Positions 13,632-30,954 of a stretch of DNA of 64,000 nt are shown one piece after another. The position numbers and the translations under genes are program-made. Location of the stretch: NCBI GenBank assembly GCA_038881635.1, contig JAVZPJ010000005.1:32082-96081 (forward strand), given 5' to 3'. The first letter of the stretch is position 1. Every line of letters starts with the position of its first letter. The notes below the pieces were generated by a model. It had not been told where the DNA came from. It saw only the letters and a program-made list of their open reading frames with translations, and searched no databases. Source of the DNA: Sulfolobales archaeon (lineage in GTDB: Archaea; Thermoproteota; Thermoprotei_A; Sulfolobales; AG1).

Positions 13632-13871
13632 ATGTGCTGGGGTGTTCCTGCTATTGTTAGAAGAGTCTTAGAAGACAGGATCAGAGCATTAGTAGACTTT
13701 GGAGATGGTATTGATCATGAGGTTGTTATAGGGATCTCTGATGAGGAGATTAGAGAAGGAGATACTGTTATAGTGCATGCAGGAGTTATAATATCAAAGA
13801 TATCTGAAGAAGATCTTAGAGAGCATATGGAGTATGTAGAAGCTCTTCTCAAAGATCAGAATGAGGAGTGA
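13632..13871 (+). CDS. hypC: Hydrogenase maturation chaperone HypC
   Basis: Small chaperone (79 aa) that binds iron with HypD and carries the Fe(CN)2CO unit to the hydrogenase large subunit. The essential N-terminal motif is present as 'MCWGVPA', with Cys2 exposed after Met removal. The rest has the usual beta-barrel pattern 'ALVDFGDG...GDTVIVHAG'. It lies 20 bp after hypD and its stop overlaps the start region of hypE, typical of a hypD-C-E operon. Confidence 0.95.
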   Translation: MCWGVPAIVRRVLEDRIRALVDFGDGIDHEVVIGISDEEIREGDTVIVHAGVIISKISEEDLREHMEYVEALLKDQNEE

Positions 13872-13876
13872 AGAAA

Positions 13877-14932
13877 ATGTCAGGAGAATTCATTAGACTA
13901 GCTCACGGATCTGGAGGAGTCGAGATGCGAGAACTTCTCGAGAAACTTATATTCTCTAGAATCGATTCAAAGCTCAAGAGATTCGGAGATGAAGGTGTAG
14001 GTATTGATATGCCTGATGATGGTGCTGGGATCAAGATCAGTGATGATCTGTATCTTGTGATTTCCACAGACTCCTACACTGTTAAACCTCTCTTCTTCCC
14101 CGGAGGTGATATTGGAATGCTTGCGGCTTCAGGCTCTATTAATGATGTTCTTATGATGGGTGGTATTCCTATAGCTATTATGGATTCTATTGTTATCGAA
14201 GAAGGTTTTCCTATGAGAGATCTCGAGAGAATCATAGGATCATTTATTGAGATCCTCAGATCTGAGGGAGTAGCTCTAGTAGGAGGAGATTTCAAGGTGA
14301 TGCCCAGAGGAGAGCTTGATGGAATTATCATAAATACCGTAGCCTTAGGTCTTGCCAGAAGACTGATAATAGACAGCATAAAACCTGGAGATAAGATCAT
14401 AGTATCAGATTACGTAGGAGATCACGGAGCTATTATAATGCTCTATAGAATGGGTCTAGCAAAAGATCCTGAGACTTTAGAGAGGAGTAGGATTAGAAGC
14501 GATGTTAAACCTCTTACAAGTCTTATGAAGCCTGTTCTTGAGAAGTATTCAGAATACATACATGCAGCGAGAGATCCTACTAGAGGAGGTTTAGCAGGTG
14601 TTCTCAACGAGTGGGTTAGAGATTCTGAACATGTGATATATATAGATGAAGACGAGATACCGATAAGAGATCCTGTGAGAAGATACTCTGAGATGCTAGG
14701 GATAGACCCTCTATATCTAGCTAGTGAGGGTGTGGCGGTATTCTCAGTAGATCCCTCTATCTCTGAAGAGTTTATTTCATTTATAAGAAAGATAGGCTAT
14801 CCTAATGCTAGAATCGTTGGAGAGGTTAGAAGTGAGAAAAGGTATAAGGGTAGGGTTATAATGAGAACAAGTGTGGGAGGAGTTAGAATAGTGGATCCTC
14901 CCAGAGGAGAGCTTATTCCGAGAATATGCTAG
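13877..14932 (+). CDS. hypE: Hydrogenase maturation protein HypE
   Basis: HypE turns a carbamoylated C-terminal cysteine into a thiocyanate and donates cyanide to iron. The C-terminal motif is 'PRIC', with the acceptor cysteine last, as required. The ATP-binding (PurM-like) fold shows 'LAHGSGG', 'GDEGVGIDMPDDGAGI', 'STDSYTVKPLFFPGGDIG' and 'DPTRGGLAGVLNEW'. GTG 13868 is the first possible start, but ATG 13877 follows GAGGAGTG at good spacing. HypF, encoded on the other strand about 2.4 kb further, supplies the carbamoyl group. Confidence 0.97.
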   Translation: MSGEFIRLAHGSGGVEMRELLEKLIFSRIDSKLKRFGDEGVGIDMPDDGAGIKISDDLYLVISTDSYTVKPLFFPGGDIGMLAASGSINDVLMMGGIPIAIMDSIVIEEGFPMRDLERIIGSFIEILRSEGVALVGGDFKVMPRGELDGIIINTVALGLARRLIIDSIKPGDKIIVSDYVGDHGAIIMLYRMGLAKDPETLERSRIRSDVKPLTSLMKPVLEKYSEYIHAARDPTRGGLAGVLNEWVRDSEHVIYIDEDEIPIRDPVRRYSEMLGIDPLYLASEGVAVFSVDPSISEEFISFIRKIGYPNARIVGEVRSEKRYKGRVIMRTSVGGVRIVDPPRGELIPRIC

Positions 14933-15549
14933 GGCTGAATAGTTTGATTCATATGATAAGAATTAGAGATACAATTCTAAAACTAAGAGATTTCGCGGGA
15001 GTAGAGATAGTATACGGAGGAGAGAGATTATGCATAGACATTCTCTACCCTCTACAATGTGATTATATACTATACACTCACAATCATCCGAGACATTCTC
15101 CTGATAGTATTCTGCTAGAGAGATTTTCAGATAGGATCTACAGTCTCTTCTATGGGAATAAGATTAAGATTGGTGAAAGAATTAAGATATCAGATCACTT
15201 CATCGTGGAATCTGTAGAAGCGTTTAGCTGGAGATATCCTGAGTATCATTCCAGAGGATCTGGAGCTGGTTTTATCGTAGAAAGTGATCTGAGGATATAT
15301 CATACGGGAGATAGTGATCTCTCTAGAGATATTCTATCAAGTGTTAGAGGAGGTGTGGATGTTCTTATAATACCTATAGAAGGGTTGGGAGTATACACAC
15401 CAGAAGAAGCTGTAGAAGTAGTGAGATCTCTTCGCCCCTCTATATCTATTCCTATTCATTTTCAGGATATAGATAGCTTCTATATCTTTAGAGACATGGC
15501 TCAGCCATATACTCAGGTGGTGCTTCTTGGAAGAGAAAGATCTGGATGA
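14926..15549 (+). CDS. Metallo-beta-lactamase-fold hydrolase-like protein (UlaG/UPF0173-like) with altered metal motif
   Basis: A 207-aa protein with the layout of COG2220 metal-dependent hydrolases. The metal motif is 'THNHPRHS', in which the usual Asp of HxHxDH is Arg. The downstream ligands look conserved: 'IYHTGDSDLS' and 'SIPIHFQD'. It may therefore bind one metal only. The frame begins at ATG 14926, inside the last codons of hypE; ATG 14953 is an alternative. Its 3' end overlaps the next gene, so it is co-transcribed with the hyp genes. A role in hydrogenase maturation is inferred from position only. Confidence 0.7.
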   Translation: MLGLNSLIHMIRIRDTILKLRDFAGVEIVYGGERLCIDILYPLQCDYILYTHNHPRHSPDSILLERFSDRIYSLFYGNKIKIGERIKISDHFIVESVEAFSWRYPEYHSRGSGAGFIVESDLRIYHTGDSDLSRDILSSVRGGVDVLIIPIEGLGVYTPEEAVEVVRSLRPSISIPIHFQDIDSFYIFRDMAQPYTQVVLLGRERSG

Positions 15550-17374
15550 TCTCATTAGAAGATTTCATTCAGAGAATCTCTACACACCTCCTGTGGCTAG
15601 GTATAAGGTAGTGGATCTAGAATACTATAAGAAGATCTATATGGAGTCGGTTAGAGATCCATGTAGTTTCTGGGGTAGAGAAGCTGAGAAACTTGCTTGG
15701 AGTAGAAAATGGAGGAAAACATGCGAAGGCGAAGGTCTTAATACTAGATGGTTCGTAGATGGCGAGATTAACGTGTATTATAATCTTATCGAGAAGCACA
15801 GAGATAAATGGGTGTGGAGCAAGCCTGCTGTGATCTGGGAGAGTGAGGATGGTAGTGTTAGGATATCATTCTACAAGGATCTTTACGAGAGATCTAGTGT
15901 CATAGCTAGAGCTTTAGAAGATTATGGTGTGAGAAGAGGAGAATGGGTTATAATGTATGTAACCCCCTCGATAGAATCTCTCGAGATATTCCTAGCTCTA
16001 ATGAGAATAGGAGCTCCAGTAGAATTTATATTCACAGGCTTCGGCTACTACGAGATTAGAAAGAGGATCATGGGTAGAAGAGCTAGACATATAATCTCTG
16101 TAGATGGATTTACTAGAAGAGGAAGATCTATAGATCTTCTGAGTAACATTCTTAGAAGCGTTGAGAAGCTGGAGATCAAGAATATATTCTTAGTGAGAAG
16201 AATTGAGAAAGCTTATAAAGATGATAGAATAGTCTACTACGAGGATCTAATAAGAGGATCTAAGCATGAAAAAGATCCCGCAATTCTAAACTCAAGAGAT
16301 CCTTTGATAGGACTTCACACAGGATATGTAGAAGATTTCAAACCATTAACACACGGGGTAGGAGGATTTCTCGTACAAGTCTACGCTACAAGTAAATGGA
16401 TCGGTTTAAGACCTCATGATACTTATTTCTGCACAGTATGGCCTGGATGGATTACAGGAATCTCCTACCAGTTCTTCGGACCTCTCATGATAGGATCCAC
16501 GATAGTATTCTACGAGGGAGGGCCTGACCAGCCTAGCTGGAATAGATGGTGGGATATTATAGAGAGGTACTCTGTAACCCTCTTCCTAACAACGGGAAGT
16601 GCTCTTAGAATGCTTAGAAGAAACACTCCAGAACCTCTGAAGATCTATAGATTCGATACTTTGAAAGCTATTCTCGTGACAGCTGAACCACTTGAGACTG
16701 AGGTGTGGGAGTGGAGCTATAGGTATGTTGGCACGGGGAGTAGAGCTTTTATAACATCTGTTCCGGAGAAATTTAGTGGGAGGATTCCTGTTGTGAATCT
16801 CTATATTCAAAGCGAGATAGGATCTTTTGCTACAGGAAGTCTTATAAATTATGTGTTCACAGAACTCTCACCAGGATCTGTAGGTCCTCCGATCCCTGGT
16901 TTTCATATTGATGTAGTTGATAAGAATGGGAATCCTATAAGAGGAAGCCCAGGTATGATGATAATAAGAAGTCCATGGCCTTCGATGCCTATAGAGTATC
17001 CTGAAGACTTTTCATTGAGATGGGCGAGAGGATATTATGAGACAGGAGATCTTGCTATAATGAGTGAGAATATGAATATATATCCTCTAGGAAGATATGA
17101 TGGTGTGATGAAGATCAGTGGATATAGGATCAGTCCTGGAGCGATAGAGAGAGTTCTCAGAGAGATCGCGAATCTAAAGAGTTTCAGAATCAAAAGATTA
17201 TATGATGATCTAAGATTTGAATCATATGTAGTTGAAGTATATGAAGAACTAGGAGAAAAAGATCTTAGGAGAATCATCAGAGAAAGTATTGGAGCTATTG
17301 CAGAGCCTAGGGATGTAATAGTTAAGAAGTCTCATGATGATTCTTCTAGCAAAGCTGATGCCACAGCGATCTGA
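15527..17374 (+). CDS. Acetyl-CoA-synthetase-like protein lacking the AMP-forming P-loop and C-terminal lysine
   Basis: Clearly of the AMP-forming acyl-CoA synthetase family, close to acetyl-CoA synthetase: 'WPGWITGISYQFFGPLMIG', 'RWWDIIERYSVTLF', 'YYETGDLAI', 'GRYDGVMKISGYRISPGAIE'. However, where the family has Y-T-S-G-T-T-G-x-P-K there is 'LHTGYVEDFKPLTHG' (residues 263-277). The C-terminus also ends before the P-K-T-R-S-G-K adenylation lysine, finishing in an Asp/Ser-rich tail. The frame is continuous, so this is not a simple frameshift. Adenylation seems unlikely; a CoA- or acyl-binding role is possible. The last 43 bp overlap hypF on the other strand. Confidence 0.8.
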   Translation: MEEKDLDDLIRRFHSENLYTPPVARYKVVDLEYYKKIYMESVRDPCSFWGREAEKLAWSRKWRKTCEGEGLNTRWFVDGEINVYYNLIEKHRDKWVWSKPAVIWESEDGSVRISFYKDLYERSSVIARALEDYGVRRGEWVIMYVTPSIESLEIFLALMRIGAPVEFIFTGFGYYEIRKRIMGRRARHIISVDGFTRRGRSIDLLSNILRSVEKLEIKNIFLVRRIEKAYKDDRIVYYEDLIRGSKHEKDPAILNSRDPLIGLHTGYVEDFKPLTHGVGGFLVQVYATSKWIGLRPHDTYFCTVWPGWITGISYQFFGPLMIGSTIVFYEGGPDQPSWNRWWDIIERYSVTLFLTTGSALRMLRRNTPEPLKIYRFDTLKAILVTAEPLETEVWEWSYRYVGTGSRAFITSVPEKFSGRIPVVNLYIQSEIGSFATGSLINYVFTELSPGSVGPPIPGFHIDVVDKNGNPIRGSPGMMIIRSPWPSMPIEYPEDFSLRWARGYYETGDLAIMSENMNIYPLGRYDGVMKISGYRISPGAIERVLREIANLKSFRIKRLYDDLRFESYVVEVYEELGEKDLRRIIRESIGAIAEPRDVIVKKSHDDSSSKADATAI

Positions 17375-19653
17375 CCTACTCCAATACCTCCGTCACCTGG
17401 TGGAACACTTCTGTTAATCCTGACCATAACATCTTCTTCAGAAGCGATCTCTCTAATACCTCTTATTATGTAGCTGTTCACAGCTGCACCTCCTGAGACT
17501 AATATCTCGTTTCTAGAGATTCTAAGACCTCTCATACTATCTATAGCGATTCTCGCTAGAGAGGATCCAAGGCTTTTAAGTATTGCGAGAGCTATAGAGC
17601 TTCTCTCTTCTCTCTCGATCTTGTCGAGAACCCATTCGAGAAGATCTCTTATATCAACTACTAGCAGTCCATCTGAAGAGAAGATCCTTATATAAGGTTC
17701 TTCAAGAACCTTCTCAGCTCTATCAGCTTCAGCTTCAAGTCTTATAGGAGGCTCTCCTTCATATGTTCTCAGACTGCATACTCCTAGTAATGCTGAGAAT
17801 GCATCTAGAACTCTACCCATGCTACTAGTCTTCACACCCATGCCTCTGCTTGATAGAACATGTGTTATCTCAGCTTCTTGAACTCCGTGTGGAAGAGATT
17901 CTATGAGTCTGTTTCTATTCAGAATCCTATGAATCTCATCCCATGAATAGCCTAAACCCGTCATAAGAGCTATAAGAGTTTTCACAGGATAAATAGCTGA
18001 AGAATCTCCTCCAGGTAGATTAAAAGATCTCAGACTTCCAACTCTTTTAAACTCTCTATATCCTGCTATGAGAATCTCTCCACCCCATATACCTCCGTCA
18101 ACTCCGTAGCCTGTTCCATCTATAGCTATTCCTATAGCTCTTTCATCAAGTTCATATCTTTCTTCAATCATTAGAGAAGCTATGTGAGCATGATGATGCT
18201 GTACTTCGACTAGCTTCGCATTATACTCTCTCGAGATCTTCCTGGCAATATCTCTGCTATGATATCCTGGATGCATATCTAGAGCAACTGCTTCAGGTCT
18301 TAGATCATATGTTTCAAGAAGCCATTTTAATTCTCTCTCTAGATCCTCTAGATTTCCAGGATCATCGAGATCTCCTATGAATTGTGTTGGAATGATCTTG
18401 TCGTCGAAGCCTACTGCTCCAGCTACTTGAAGTTCTGCTCCTACAGCAACTAGATCTCTTATTCTAAGAGATGTTCTAATCCATGTAGGTGCGTAGCCTC
18501 TTGATCTTCTTAGAAAAACAGGTTCTCCATCGGTGAATCTTATCACGCTATCATCAACTCTATGAACGATCTCTCTATCATGTTCAACGATGTAGTCAAC
18601 GATTGAACTCAGCTCTCTCAGAACACACTCGAGATTAGTACACATAGGTCTTCCATGAGAATTTCCACTGGTCATTATCAGAAAACCCTCTGGAATGCTT
18701 CTCATGAGGAGAATTTGAAAGCCTGTGTATGGAAGCATTATACCTAGACTTGAAAGTCCTGGAGCTACATACTCTGATACTAGAGAGCTTCTCTTCTTAG
18801 GTAGCACTACTATTGGTTTCTGAGGTGATTGGAGAAGTTCTCTAGCTCTATCATTTAGAAATACTATCTTTTCAGCTACCTCTAGATCTCTCACCATCAG
18901 AGCAAATGGTTTGTAAGGTCTTCTCTTTCTTCTTCTAAGCTCTAGAACCACGTCATCTCTTGACGCTAGTGCTGCTATGTGATATCCTCCGACACCTTTA
19001 ACAGCTACTATAGATCCTCTCAGTATTTCTCTGGATATGAAATCTATGATCTCGCTCTCTCTAATATTGATCTTCTCACCTTTGGATGTATACACATAAG
19101 TTCTAGGACCACATCTAGAACAGCTGATCCCTTGAGCATGAAATCTTCTTAGATTCTCAGGATCTTTATAATCTCTCTCACAATCACTACAAAGCTTGTA
19201 TCTGGCCATCGATGTGTTCTCACGATCATAAGGAGTTCTATACATCATAGAGTATCTAGGACCACACCAGGCGCAGCTATTCCAGTAATAACCGCTGAAC
19301 CTAGTTCCAGACTCTAGGATCTCGCTGGCACAGTAGTGACACACACCTATGTCTGGTGGTATCATGCTCCTGATATCCTTATCATGAATGCTTTTGAGAA
19401 TGCTGAAATCTCTATAACCTCTGGGAGTTTCCTCCTCTACGATCACTTCCTCGTAGAATGCTGGAGGAGGTTTTTCAACTTCTAGAGATCTTAAGAAGCT
19501 TTCTATATCCTTGTCATCGCCTTCGACGAATATCTCAACCTCGGCACCTCCCTTGTTAACGACGTATCCTTTCAAATTATTTTTAGAAGCAATTCTATAG
19601 ATAAAAGGTCTGAAACCTACTCCTTGTACGATTCCTGAGATTCTTATTCTCAA
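17332..19653 (-). CDS. hypF: Carbamoyltransferase HypF
   Basis: HypF makes the carbamoyl group that HypE converts to the cyanide ligands. All four modules are present in 773 aa: N-terminal acylphosphatase ('VQGVGFRPFIYR', residues 9-20), two C4 zinc fingers (about 105-190, e.g. 'CSDCERDYKDP' and 'CSRCGP'), a YrdC-like domain ('KGVGGYHIA', 'KRRPYKPFALMV') and a Kae1-like carbamoyltransferase domain ('VQHHHAHIASLM', 'AIDGTGYGVDGGIWGGE', 'VSGGAAVN'). It is transcribed toward the hypA-E operon from its own promoter, and its 3' end overlaps the Acs-like gene by 43 bp. Confidence 0.97.
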   Translation of the reverse strand: MRIRISGIVQGVGFRPFIYRIASKNNLKGYVVNKGGAEVEIFVEGDDKDIESFLRSLEVEKPPPAFYEEVIVEEETPRGYRDFSILKSIHDKDIRSMIPPDIGVCHYCASEILESGTRFSGYYWNSCAWCGPRYSMMYRTPYDRENTSMARYKLCSDCERDYKDPENLRRFHAQGISCSRCGPRTYVYTSKGEKINIRESEIIDFISREILRGSIVAVKGVGGYHIAALASRDDVVLELRRRKRRPYKPFALMVRDLEVAEKIVFLNDRARELLQSPQKPIVVLPKKRSSLVSEYVAPGLSSLGIMLPYTGFQILLMRSIPEGFLIMTSGNSHGRPMCTNLECVLRELSSIVDYIVEHDREIVHRVDDSVIRFTDGEPVFLRRSRGYAPTWIRTSLRIRDLVAVGAELQVAGAVGFDDKIIPTQFIGDLDDPGNLEDLERELKWLLETYDLRPEAVALDMHPGYHSRDIARKISREYNAKLVEVQHHHAHIASLMIEERYELDERAIGIAIDGTGYGVDGGIWGGEILIAGYREFKRVGSLRSFNLPGGDSSAIYPVKTLIALMTGLGYSWDEIHRILNRNRLIESLPHGVQEAEITHVLSSRGMGVKTSSMGRVLDAFSALLGVCSLRTYEGEPPIRLEAEADRAEKVLEEPYIRIFSSDGLLVVDIRDLLEWVLDKIEREERSSIALAILKSLGSSLARIAIDSMRGLRISRNEILVSGGAAVNSYIIRGIREIASEEDVMVRINRSVPPGDGGIGVGQIAVASALLEESS

Positions 19654-19923
19654 GGCTTTTATAACGACACCCTATATAGATTAGAATCACAGCCTAACTT
19701 ATTCTGTAGCTAAATAAAATCCTATGATATGCTCTAGCAAGCTTAAAAACTTCTCTCTTGAATCTATGTTTCTTCTCGTATTCAGCCTGGTTAAGAGAGC
19801 TCTATAAAATGCTCTACCATATCATTTCTTAAGCTCTTCTCTTTAGAGTATTCGCATAGTGGAAGGTTTATAGGGTTTTTGAGTGATGAGTTTTTTCTAG
19901 GAGGTTTTCTGAGGTGTTTTTCT

Positions 19924-20352
19924 ATGAGTAGTATGTCTATTGAGAGAATCTATAGGTTTAAGGGTGATCCTAGGAGTTTCATAGATAGAATACTCAGAGA
20001 TCCAGAGATTATAGCATTATATTATGAAGGTGTAGAAGGATCTGCTGAAGAAAGATATCTTAGGATTATAAAAGCCTCGATCAGATTTGGTGATAATGAG
20101 ATTTTCAGAGGAGATATAGAGGTTTTCAAAAGACTAGAAGAACCTCTTAGAATAACTTTTCACGGTATTAAAGGTGAGATAATAGATCTCATCATAAGCT
20201 TCATGAGGATATCTGGTAATGAGTATATTATGAAGATCCTATGTAGATTCAACGAGAGAAGTAGCAGGCCGGATTATCATGCTCTTGAGAGTATCCTCAG
20301 ATATCTTGAAGAACAATTTCTACTCTATTTCCCTAACGAGTTTAAGCCTTAA
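19924..20352 (+). CDS. Hypothetical protein, SRPBCC-like small domain
   Basis: About 142 aa. The pattern 'IERIYRFKGDPRSFIDRILR', then strands 'IFRGDIEVFKRLEEPLRITF' and a long C-terminal helix ('ALESILRYLEEQF'), resembles a small SRPBCC/CoxG-type lipid- or ligand-binding domain; this is a fold guess only. A longer frame opens at 19879, but GAGGTG near 19911-19916 fits ATG 19924. The gene at 23265-23756 (other strand) has a similar size and layout and may be a distant paralogue. The coding strand near the start is notably G/T-rich. Confidence 0.5.
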   Translation: MSSMSIERIYRFKGDPRSFIDRILRDPEIIALYYEGVEGSAEERYLRIIKASIRFGDNEIFRGDIEVFKRLEEPLRITFHGIKGEIIDLIISFMRISGNEYIMKILCRFNERSSRPDYHALESILRYLEEQFLLYFPNEFKP

Positions 20353-20389: not shown

Positions 20390-21241
20390 TCAAGTTCTCA
20401 TTCTCCTAGATATCTTAGGCTTGACAAGATATTGATCAGGATCTATACCTCTAGATCTTCTGGCAAGTATAAAGCCTCTATACCCGGAACCTGTTTCTAT
20501 GAAGTCTATCTCTGAGAAGAAAAACCATGATATCGAAAGTAGACCGGCTAGATCCCATAATCTGAATTCTAGAGCAACTCTATCCATAGTACTTAGATCT
20601 ATGAAAATCCTCTTAAAAACACCTCTAAAAGGATCATAGGCTATGTGGCCGGATAACACAAATCCTCCTCTCTTACTACTCTCTAGAGATACATCTCTAA
20701 AATCTCTCTGCTGATACAAAGACCAGATCCTATCATAATCCTCGATAACCAGAACACCTTCTAAGCCTAAGACTCTTGATAATCCTCCTATAAGATGTAT
20801 CATTTGATACACATCGAAATGAGGTGTTGAAAAACCATATATGAGAGCTATATCAGCTTCTCTAACATGCTTATAGAGATTTAAAGCATCATCTCTTATC
20901 ACATCAGCTTCTCTACCAAGATAAGCCCTACTATAGATCCTAGCCTTCTCAAGAGCTGAAAACCTGAGATCATTAACTATAAGATCATACTCAAAACCTC
21001 TATCAAGAAGAAGCTTAGCCATAGCAATACCACCAATCCCAGAACCACCACAAACATCAACAATCCTAAACCTTCTCCTCCTAGAAAGAAGATCTCTAAA
21101 CCACTCATGCTCAAACAAAATAGAAAAAGATTCATAAGCCTCCTGAAACCTCTTCAGACCAGAACCTCTATCAAGATCCTCATCCCAACCAATAATACTA
21201 TAATACCTCTCAAGATCACCATAACCCAATAAAAACCCCAT
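20390..21241 (-). CDS. Class I SAM-dependent methyltransferase
   Basis: SAM-binding motif I is 'RIVDVCGGSGIGG' (about residues 59-71), followed by 'YDLIVNDLRFSALEKA' (motif II region) and 'VIRDDALNLY' (motif III). This is a Rossmann-fold methyltransferase of about 283 aa with unknown substrate. The open frame runs up to 21316 into the left arm of the palindrome, giving a start 'MMNLLYTYAAG', but that part is AT-rich and hydrophobic; ATG 21241 (or TTG 21229) gives a more natural N-terminus. The region before it is very T-rich on the coding strand. Confidence 0.75.
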   Translation of the reverse strand: MGFLLGYGDLERYYSIIGWDEDLDRGSGLKRFQEAYESFSILFEHEWFRDLLSRRRRFRIVDVCGGSGIGGIAMAKLLLDRGFEYDLIVNDLRFSALEKARIYSRAYLGREADVIRDDALNLYKHVREADIALIYGFSTPHFDVYQMIHLIGGLSRVLGLEGVLVIEDYDRIWSLYQQRDFRDVSLESSKRGGFVLSGHIAYDPFRGVFKRIFIDLSTMDRVALEFRLWDLAGLLSISWFFFSEIDFIETGSGYRGFILARRSRGIDPDQYLVKPKISRRMRT

Positions 21242-21281
21242 AAAAGAAAATATCAGAAGAAAATAAGAAGAAAAATAAAAA

Positions 21282-21469
21282 GGCCCGGCGGCATAGGTAT
21301 ATAGTAGATTCATCATATAATCATATGATCATGATATATATGATATATGAAGACAGCGCGGATCTACGCAGAGTTTCCCCCACGTAGACCCGTGCCGTCT
21401 TCATATATCATATATATCATGATCATATGATTATATGATGAATCTACTATATACCTATGCCGCCGGGCC
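21282..21469. repeat. 188-bp palindrome: perfect 73-bp inverted repeat, extended by a coaxial inner stem
   Basis: The arms 21282-21354 and 21397-21469 are exact reverse complements over all 73 positions. The outer ends are GC-rich (GGCCCGGCGGC) and the remainder AT-rich. The 42-bp middle continues the symmetry: 21363-21368 (TCTACG) pairs with 21383-21388 (CGTAGA), so 84 of 87 positions pair around a 14-nt loop (21369-21382, containing a TTTCCCCC run). The axis is 21375.5. It lies between the divergent methyltransferase and apgM genes. No target-site duplication is visible at the outer ends. It could form a cruciform, or a hairpin if transcribed. Confidence 0.95.
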
Positions 21470-21754
21470 GTGTAATATATTTGTTTTCTGGATATTTATG
21501 CTTAGATCTGATGGTATTTGATCTGTGTTTGGTGATTTTTTTAATTATTTTATATTAACATTTGATTGCAGTCTTGTTAGAGTTCTTCTCTTTCTATGTT
21601 TATATTGTATATGATAATAATGTGTTTTTTCTTCTGCTTGTGATTTTTATTTTCAGCTGGCTTCTGGCATTTTCTTTAATGTTTTCTCTGGTTTTGTTTG
21701 TTTCTAAGATCTTTTGCTTAATATTTGTTTAACTATCTTATTCTGGTGAATGTA
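21470..21754. other. T-rich spacer between palindrome and apgM
   Basis: No gene is seen in these 285 bp. In 21481-21720 the top strand is about 56% T but only about 17% A (counted by eye: 134 T, 41 A of 240). On the far side of the palindrome the top strand is rich in A and C instead. The apgM promoter must lie here; AT-rich TATA-like sequences (TTATATT, TATATTGTATATG) occur near 21550 and 21600, but none can be chosen with confidence. Confidence 0.6.
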
Positions 21755-23035
21755 TTGGGTTTGAGAAGTAAGCTTTTATATGTTGTTCTGGATGGTGCTG
21801 CTGATAGTATTAGTGATCCTTATACTACTCTTGAGAAGGCTAGCAAACCTGGTTTGGACAGGCTTGCTAGAGAGAGTGTGTGTGGTGTTATGTATGTTCT
21901 TGGTAGGGGTATTGCTCCTGAGAGTGATGAAGCTGTTATATCTCTTCTAGGATATGATCCTCATGAGATTTATACTGGGAGAGGACCTATAGAAGCTGTT
22001 GGAATAGGGCTGGGGCTTAGAGAAGATTATGAGATAGCTTTCAGAGCTAATTTTGCTACAATAGATCCTTCTACTAGAAGAATCATAGATAGAAGAGCTG
22101 GGAGAAGTATTAGTAGAGATGAAGCTGTAGAACTTGCTAAAACTCTTGATGGACTGGATCTAGGGATTTACGATGGTTATGCTAGAGTGAGAGCTTCTAT
22201 AGGTCATAGAGCTGTGGTTATAATAGGTAGTAGAAGTCGTAAGCTGTCGCCCTTAGTAAGCAACAGCGATCCAGCTTACGAGAGAAGAGGTCTTATAAGC
22301 ATTGCCACACCATCTTACGAACCCTATCTAAAACACGTGAAAGCTCTTGAAGATTCTGAGGAAGCTAGAATTGCCGCGGAGCTTACAAATAGATTTATAG
22401 AGCTCTCTATAGAGAAACTCGATAAACATCCTATAAATAAGATTAGAAGAGAGAGAGGAGCACCTCCAGCCAACGTAATACTTCTCAGAGACGCTGGCGG
22501 GAGGATCCCGAAGCCCGAGCCTCTTGAAAAGAGATATGAAGCAAGATTCGCAGTTCTAGCTGAGATGCCTGTTGAAGTAGGTCTTGGAAGAATCTTCGGT
22601 GCTAAAACATTAGAATTAGAATACATAGAAGATCCTAGGAGAAACTATGAGGACAAGCTTGAGAAAACACTCAAGATGTTAAAAGATAATGACATAGTAT
22701 ACATCCATCTTAAAGGACCTGACGAGCCGGGTCATGATGGAGATTTCGAGCTTAAGAAGAAAAGAATCGAAGATATAGATAGATACTTTATAACACCAGT
22801 ATTAGAAGAGGTTCTAGAAAAAATCTCAATGATAGTCACAGCAGATCACGCAACACCTCCATCTAGAAGATCTCATACAGACGACCCAGTACCAGTGCTA
22901 TTCTACACACCCGGTATAGAGCCTGATAGGATAACAATCTTCAGCGAGAGAAACTGCATGAGAGGATCTCTAGGAGTCTACGAACATGGGTGGAACATGC
23001 TTCCAAGCATTATCCAGAAACATCTCAAGATCTAG
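21755..23035 (+). CDS. apgM: 2,3-bisphosphoglycerate-independent phosphoglycerate mutase, archaeal type
   Basis: Glycolytic/gluconeogenic enzyme interconverting 3- and 2-phosphoglycerate. Alkaline-phosphatase-fold motifs are in place: 'LLYVVLDGAADS' at the N-terminus, 'APESDEAVISLLGYDP' with the serine nucleophile, 'YTGRGPIEAVGIG', 'VYIHLKGPDEPGHDGD' and 'IVTADHATPPSRRSHTDDPV' for the metals. The frame can be opened at 21725, but GGTG at 21745-21748 with TTG 21755 (or TTG 21761) fits the family N-terminus. Codons near the start are strongly T/G-biased, and this weakens toward the end. Confidence 0.93.
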   Translation: MGLRSKLLYVVLDGAADSISDPYTTLEKASKPGLDRLARESVCGVMYVLGRGIAPESDEAVISLLGYDPHEIYTGRGPIEAVGIGLGLREDYEIAFRANFATIDPSTRRIIDRRAGRSISRDEAVELAKTLDGLDLGIYDGYARVRASIGHRAVVIIGSRSRKLSPLVSNSDPAYERRGLISIATPSYEPYLKHVKALEDSEEARIAAELTNRFIELSIEKLDKHPINKIRRERGAPPANVILLRDAGGRIPKPEPLEKRYEARFAVLAEMPVEVGLGRIFGAKTLELEYIEDPRRNYEDKLEKTLKMLKDNDIVYIHLKGPDEPGHDGDFELKKKRIEDIDRYFITPVLEEVLEKISMIVTADHATPPSRRSHTDDPVPVLFYTPGIEPDRITIFSERNCMRGSLGVYEHGWNMLPSIIQKHLKI

Positions 23036-30210: not shown

Positions 30211-30954
30211 GTGTCTAAGATATCTGTGGTAAGACTCTCAATATATACATCGCTAGTATTCATAGCAACAATAGTGCTTCAGATATACACACCAGCTACA
30301 AGAGGATACTTCAACCTAGGAGAAGTAGCTATATACTCGATAGCATCTATAGCAAGTCCTGTCACAACAGCTATAGCAGCTGGAATAGGATCTGCACTAG
30401 CAGATCTTCTCACAGGATATGGGATATTCGCTCCAGGAACACTTATTATAAAAGCTTCTGAAGGCTTTATTGTAAGTGTTCTAATAAGATCTCTTAGCAA
30501 AATGAAGATTCGCAAAGCTAGAATCCTATCAATAATAATATCTGCAGGAGTAGGAGTTCTCATATTCATAGCAGGAGTTAAACTCTGGACAGGATATGTA
30601 GAGCTTACATCCATCCCCGTCAACATACTAGGGTTCCAAGCCACGCTACTCACACTCACAATGGATATAAGCGCTTTTATATGGGCTCTCTTAGGAGGCG
30701 TCGTAGCTCTACTAATGATATACATGATATGGTCTAGAGGATCTGAGAATATATCTACAGCACTTTCAATGAGTATAGGAGGATTTATAATGGTCATGGG
30801 GTACTTCCTCTACGAATACTTCATCTCAAATCCTCTACAAGGAATCCCTTCTGAAGCAGCATTCGTAGAAATCCCTATAAATCTAGGTCAGGTTCTCTTC
30901 GGAATCTCTCTAGCTCTTCCTATTTCTAGCTTTATGAGGAAAGCAGTAGAATGA
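30211..30954 (+). CDS. ECF transporter substrate-binding membrane subunit (S component)
   Basis: 247 aa with about six spans. The region 'RGYFNLGEVAIYSIASIASP' and 'GIGSALADLLTGYGIFAP' followed by 'TLIIKASEGFIVSVL' is the signature of Pfam ECF-ribofla_trS-like S components. An inserted extracytoplasmic part ('WTGYVELTSIPVNILG') is present. The GTG start at 30211 lies about 30 bases after TTTATA (30178-30183), consistent with a leaderless transcript. The ATPase and T-component genes follow at once, so the transporter is complete. The vitamin or metal carried is unknown. Confidence 0.8.
   Translation: MSKISVVRLSIYTSLVFIATIVLQIYTPATRGYFNLGEVAIYSIASIASPVTTAIAAGIGSALADLLTGYGIFAPGTLIIKASEGFIVSVLIRSLSKMKIRKARILSIIISAGVGVLIFIAGVKLWTGYVELTSIPVNILGFQATLLTLTMDISAFIWALLGGVVALLMIYMIWSRGSENISTALSMSIGGFIMVMGYFLYEYFISNPLQGIPSEAAFVEIPINLGQVLFGISLALPISSFMRKAVE

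Follow-up and report, generated by a model that had tools for sequence, protein, structure and literature searches.

A long, almost perfectly paired hairpin upstream of apgM in a Sulfolobales genus: a putative archaeal small RNA gene

An exact palindrome of 188 bases occupies positions 21282-21469 of the window, i.e., the whole stretch of 64,000 nucleotides of a Sulfolobales archaeon genome that was analysed. Sequence comparison predicts that it is probably a small non-coding RNA gene standing alone on the minus strand, whose product would fold into a single double-stranded rod of roughly 90 bp. The same rod is found at the same spot in a sister species, written in largely different letters, and it is thus the shape itself that is maintained. 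Because of the structure, the polarity and the flanks of the element, a minus-strand RNA gene is the simplest reading. The putative gene is most likely new, restricted to one genus, and characterized by an exceptionally long uninterrupted stem.

Structure and uniqueness of the palindrome

The inverted repeat consists of two 73-bp arms, 21282-21354 and 21397-21469, which are perfect reverse complements. If mismatches at arm positions 74, 77 and 81 are allowed, the symmetry extends over 87 positions per arm, of which 84 are paired, and leaves a loop of 14 nt. A repeat finder placed the arms at 21275-21368 and 21383-21476 (94%). The GC content along the hairpin arm is 0.92 over nt 1-12, 0.20 over nt 13-66 and 0.64 in the cap. 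The exact arms, the 14-nt loop with three mismatches, and the GC-rich ends around an AT-rich interior had all been described in the initial annotation and were borne out by the sequence and its coordinates.

The palindrome is far beyond chance, since it scored 78 in a direct hairpin scan of 1.36 Mb of the same genome (1.4 Mb in 18 contigs, 97% complete), compared to 16 for the next best hairpin, and since its folding z-scores are about -24 on the plus strand and -26 on the minus strand. It is also single-copy. A search with the arm, which the initial annotation had proposed, gave no second copy in its own genome or in 40 relatives, where only chance AT-rich 15-25-mers matched. A far shorter near-palindrome (22-nt arms, 82%, 1-nt loop) lies at 30437-30481 of the window and overlaps an ORF.

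Folded as minus-strand RNA, the sequence forms one rod in which 91 of the 92 arm positions are paired, at -164 to -166 kcal/mol. On the evidence of the exact inverted repeat, the fold and the orthologous hairpin, the putative small RNA gene (21282..21469, minus strand) would have its 5' end at 21469 and its 3' stem end at 21282. At the base, an outer GC clamp pairs GGCCCGGCGGCA on the 5' side (21458..21469) with 21282..21293 on the 3' side. The AT-rich middle stem has a 5' arm of 54 nt at 21404..21457 and its partner at 21294..21347, and it is Watson-Crick throughout, without a G.U pair or a mismatch. The GC-rich cap (21348..21403) is closed by a GAAA loop (21374-21377). Its conserved stem (GGxUCU..GGGGG / CUC..AGAUCC) has five G.U pairs and, at 21393 x 21358, one A.C mismatch.

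The hairpin in a second species

One genome of the same genus served for comparison, the MAG Desulfurococcales archaeon EvPrim.Bin15. On its contig WYEN01000107, a 181-nt hairpin (L047:1108-1288) is located upstream of an apgM orthologue that is 68% identical to that of the window. This hairpin also has GC clamps, with GGCCCGCCGGGC at the corresponding place, an AT-rich middle and a GC-rich cap, and the gene order hypF - small ORF - hairpin - apgM is common to both genomes. Judged from their sequences, the two hairpins are clearly homologous. They are 67% identical, with many gaps, compared to about 80% for the SRP RNA and the RNase P RNA of the same genomes. The conservation evidence consists of two sequences, both from MAGs and from one genus. 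As the hairpin stands at the same genomic position in two species, the initial suggestion that the repeat is recent is not supported. The alternative suggestion, that it is selected or maintained, gains support from an orthologue with different letters.

The pairing has been preserved while the letters changed. In the inner 135 aligned columns, 57 pairs are common to both folds. Of these, 20 have both partners replaced and five have one partner replaced, and none is broken. When the 3' partner was slid by 1-3 columns as a register control, pairing was 17-56% and double changes were zero. In the outer helix of this inner alignment, 19 of 45 pairs (42%) differ between the species, and 49% of the fourfold-degenerate sites of apgM do so. 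Hence, the stem letters drift almost as fast as silent sites, with pairing that is total. The middle stems of both species have a GC content of 0.20, close to that of the intergenic DNA around them (0.26), as expected if the identity of the letters is unconstrained and pairing alone is kept. By contrast with this drifting middle, the GC clamps, the GC-rich cap with its one A.C mismatch, the TATA-like block and the T-run are kept in both species. The A.C mismatch is found at the same position (RNA nt 72 in EvPrim.Bin15), and the cap has the same orientation, not inverted.

Gene neighbourhood

On the right, apgM (archaeal 2,3-bisphosphoglycerate-independent phosphoglycerate mutase; 21725..23035, plus strand; PF10143 and PF01676) is the divergent neighbour outside the element. 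The apgM of the genus is 59-64% identical to the apgM of three MAGs (L072-L074) and only 36-40% identical to the apgM of other members of its own family, which suggests gene transfer or paralogue exchange. On the left, a methyltransferase-like ORF (20390..21241, minus strand) also lies outside the element. The initial annotation had set the palindrome between two divergent genes; the left-hand ORF is indeed open to 21316, but a more plausible start is 21241, outside the palindrome. The ORF has no match in Pfam or NCBIfam. It is absent from EvPrim.Bin15, where the downstream neighbour of the hairpin is a different, convergent gene, and a 34% identical homologue occurs in a sister-genus genome (G002) without a long hairpin there. 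The methyltransferase-like ORF was gained or lost beside the hairpin.

Further to the left, an orphan ORF of 157 aa (19879-20352, plus strand) adjoins the hairpin locus in both genomes. Among the 40 relatives it was found in the genus only, with 36% identity in EvPrim.Bin15; it is without a known domain and evolves fast. Its product could be a partner of the putative RNA. Paralogy of two small ORFs near the locus was considered and was not supported on comparison. In the region 13868-19653, an acyl-CoA synthetase-like gene is flanked by the hydrogenase maturation genes HypE and HypF, an ordinary arrangement of which hypF belongs to the hairpin synteny.

Strand polarity and flanking signals

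The predicted fold is more stable on the minus strand in both species, with -165.7 kcal/mol compared to -151.3 on the plus strand for the window's genome, and -162.4 compared to -150.4 for EvPrim.Bin15. Most of the mismatches between the DNA arms become G.U pairs in the minus-strand RNA. Read on that strand and excluding the loop tip, the arm asymmetries comprise five G.U in the window's genome, four in EvPrim.Bin15, and one A.C in each. With shared events counted once, G.U stands to A.C at about 7 to 1 (one-sided p ~0.035). This bias is supportive of a minus-strand RNA, not decisive.

The flanks have the same polarity. Directly 3' of the stem on the minus strand lies a terminator-like T-run, TTTTTATTTTT (21271..21281), and the identical 11-mer is present on the minus side in EvPrim.Bin15; the other side of the stem has no T-run. 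In the AT-rich context of the window's genome, the frequency of T-runs with at least 10 T in 11 is 1.7e-4 per site. On the opposite side, 24-44 nt upstream of the hairpin, a promoter-like block, CATCAGATCTAAGCATAAATA (21493..21513, minus strand), is conserved in EvPrim.Bin15. The upstream 21-mer CATCAGATCWAAGCATAAATA stands at -44..-24 in the window's genome and at -43..-23 in EvPrim.Bin15, and is identical at 20 of 21 positions, against a maximum of 18 in 400 shuffles. Inside the block, about 27 nt separate the centre of the TATA-like CATAAATA (21493-21500) from the base at which the stem begins, which is the usual TATA-to-start distance in archaea. A second conserved block, ATTAAAAAAATC (21534..21545, minus strand), is found in the flank aligned with EvPrim.Bin15. 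Furthermore, a promoter matrix was trained on 43 tRNA upstream regions of the window's genome, whose own sites score 5.0-13.7. Its best match in the flank of the hairpin, at -34..-20, scores 6.2 and is within the tRNA range, and the match at the corresponding site of EvPrim.Bin15 is weak. These promoter- and terminator-like flanks argue for a separate RNA gene on the minus strand, a reading that was not among the candidates of the initial annotation.

Search for relatives and known families

In Rfam 15, no family matched above its gathering score. The best match was mir-568, with 31.5 bits compared to a cut-off of 75, evidently a chance match in AT-rich sequence. The element is not a stand-in for SRP RNA or RNase P RNA, both of which are present elsewhere in all six genomes of the family. 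A covariance model (R1) was run on 214 genomes of the order, where it retrieved the two genus members and no others, and on 398 genomes sampled over the phylum, where the window's own genome gave the sole match. The first pass of this search is apparently partly sequence-driven, so that homologues whose letters are entirely different may have escaped it. A pattern for the cap matched the two genus members and, probably by chance, one other sequence among 229 genomes of the class. Viral contigs gave no match to the promoter-plus-clamp or to the cap. A direct hairpin scan of 1.12 of the ~2.0 Mb of the sister-genus genome found nothing above a score of 16, and no long hairpin was present upstream of the more distant apgM genes that were inspected in other lineages. 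As no homologue was found outside the genus, the depth of conservation is shallow. With the search terms tried, no paper on long perfect hairpin RNA in archaea was found.

Alternative explanations

The main rival, a DNA palindrome without RNA function, is an unlikely explanation, but one with a known mechanism, in which the arms of an ancestral inverted repeat are homogenised by template switching or arm-to-arm conversion and compensatory changes appear without selection on pairing. Template switching can make and maintain perfect hairpins, with concerted arm evolution and compensatory changes in the absence of selection (PMC8794818), and concerted evolution of palindrome arms is described for the mitochondrial palindromes of Nematomorpha (PMC6649704). 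The distribution of asymmetries fits such a process: over both species, they affect 0 of 139 outer pairs and 11 of 42 cap pairs (Fisher p 3e-8), and a fold-back primed beside the loop would leave asymmetries near the loop uncorrected. However, homogenisation does not account for a TATA-like block at a fixed distance or for a T-run on one side, and it leaves the conserved clamps, the cap and the cap orientation unexplained. The bias towards G.U rather than A.C in the 11 cap asymmetries does not follow from it either. Moreover, a useless palindrome would be expected to be deleted, yet this one was kept while half of the synonymous sites changed. The genome does not generally accumulate long palindromes, since no second one was present in the 1.36 Mb scanned. 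Arm homogenisation is, in any case, compatible with selection on an RNA and may act on the arms.

Regulation in cis, either as a leader or attenuator of the minus-strand methyltransferase-like gene or as a structured site upstream of apgM, is quite improbable. In the window's genome, only about 30 nt do separate the hairpin and T-run from the probable start codon of ORF 20390-21241, which follows downstream on the same strand, and on the other side the distance to apgM is about 250-290 nt in both species. But in EvPrim.Bin15 the hairpin faces its convergent gene and the methyltransferase-like ORF is missing, the homologue of this ORF in G002 lacks a long hairpin, and apgM orthologues in three other lineages have none. 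Accordingly, the absence of the left-hand gene and the different neighbour in the sister species weaken the initial proposal that a structured site regulates both flanking genes. A protein-bound or cruciform DNA site for replication, partition or recombination is very improbable: long palindromes are typical of such sites and this one is unique in its genome, but the strand polarity of the flanks and the G.U bias speak against it, and no replication or partition genes are among the annotated near neighbours. By its shape, with terminal inverted repeats, the element could be taken for a foldback or MITE-type mobile element, as had been suggested initially. This is extremely unlikely for an element that has a single copy, no obvious target-site duplication at its edges and the same position in two diverged species. 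As for the assembly join that had also been considered, palindromes can mislead assemblers and the source is a MAG. Nevertheless, the chance of an artefact is close to negligible, because a second, independent MAG assembly has a hairpin of different sequence at the same locus, on a 25.9-kb contig, and an artefact would not give compensated changes.

Proposed mechanism and significance

In the putative small RNA gene, the TATA-like box some 27 nt upstream would direct transcription to begin at the first base of the stem (GGCCC, 21469) or a few bases away from it. The transcript would end in the T-run just past the stem (21281-21271). The predicted product is a hairpin RNA of about 190-200 nt, almost wholly double-stranded, with a basal GC clamp, an unbroken AT-rich helix of about 54 bp, and a conserved GC-rich cap in which one A.C mismatch occurs. 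Regardless of its sequence, the middle helix would serve as a dsRNA rod, with letters that drift near the neutral rate, and the clamp and cap would form the sequence-specific part. Template switching in replication may help to keep the arms identical. The RNA might act in trans through protein binding, in which the cap would be recognised and the rod would provide a dsRNA surface, spacer or decoy; such a protein-binding role is put forward tentatively.

Several observations count against an RNA gene, among them the shallow conservation and the weak promoter match in EvPrim.Bin15. An AT-rich stem is unusual for a structural RNA of a thermophile, the SRP and RNase P RNAs here having 59-67% GC. 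In addition, G.U pairs are absent from the 139 outer pairs, a regularity beyond what would usually be expected if RNA pairing were the only target of selection; in the SRP and RNase P RNAs of these genomes, the G.U fraction is 3-9%. However, G.U pairs may be too costly in an AT-rich stem at high temperature, since the predicted pairing of the middle stem is 0.98 at 70 C and decreases to 0.81 when the temperature is 90 C.

If the element is transcribed, its RNA would be archaeal, single-copy and, in essence, one long perfect dsRNA. RNAs of this form are known best from eukaryotes and eukaryotic viruses. We know of no archaeal counterpart. This raises the question of what binds long dsRNA in a hyperthermophile. 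More speculatively, and with some doubt, the hairpin could be the first representative of a new class of archaeal RNA, i.e., a discrete transcript with an unbroken dsRNA rod of about 90 bp and a freely drifting stem. In hyperthermophilic Thermoproteota, a protein of cellular or anti-viral function would then use this RNA as a dsRNA ligand, a decoy or a scaffold. Since both signatures, a drifting perfect outer stem and a cap obeying the rules of RNA pairing, are combined in one element, it offers a clean natural case for the question whether long perfect stems are kept by RNA selection or by DNA template switching.

Comparison with known systems

Adenovirus VA RNA I and the EBERs of EBV are mostly double-stranded rods of 150-200 nt, end in a T-run terminator, and act by binding proteins. 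The predicted RNA resembles them in being a compact, mostly double-stranded rod with a T-run at its end. In contrast, VA RNA I and the EBERs are eukaryotic viral RNAs with an internal RNA polymerase III promoter and bulged stems, whereas the present element is archaeal and chromosomal and has an unbroken stem of more than 70 bp; there is no homology. Bacterial 6S RNA is a rod of about 185 nt closed by a terminal stem, in which a large open bubble mimics a promoter; to our knowledge, it does not occur in archaea. Length, rod shape and terminal stem are similar, but the hairpin has no open bubble and no 6S match in Rfam.

Archaeal SRP RNA (RF01857) and RNase P RNA (RF00373) are likewise single-copy structured loci of the same genomes. 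They are, however, GC-rich, many-helixed and better conserved between the two species than the hairpin with its one single stem. MITEs and REP elements are also intergenic inverted repeats of prokaryotes, but they are multi-copy, whereas the palindrome is single-copy and syntenic. Finally, the mitochondrial palindromes of Nematomorpha are long perfect inverted repeats whose arms evolve in concert, as here, but they occur many times per genome and inside coding genes (PMC6649704). The archaeal hairpin has a single copy, which is intergenic, is flanked by promoter- and terminator-like sequences and carries a conserved cap.
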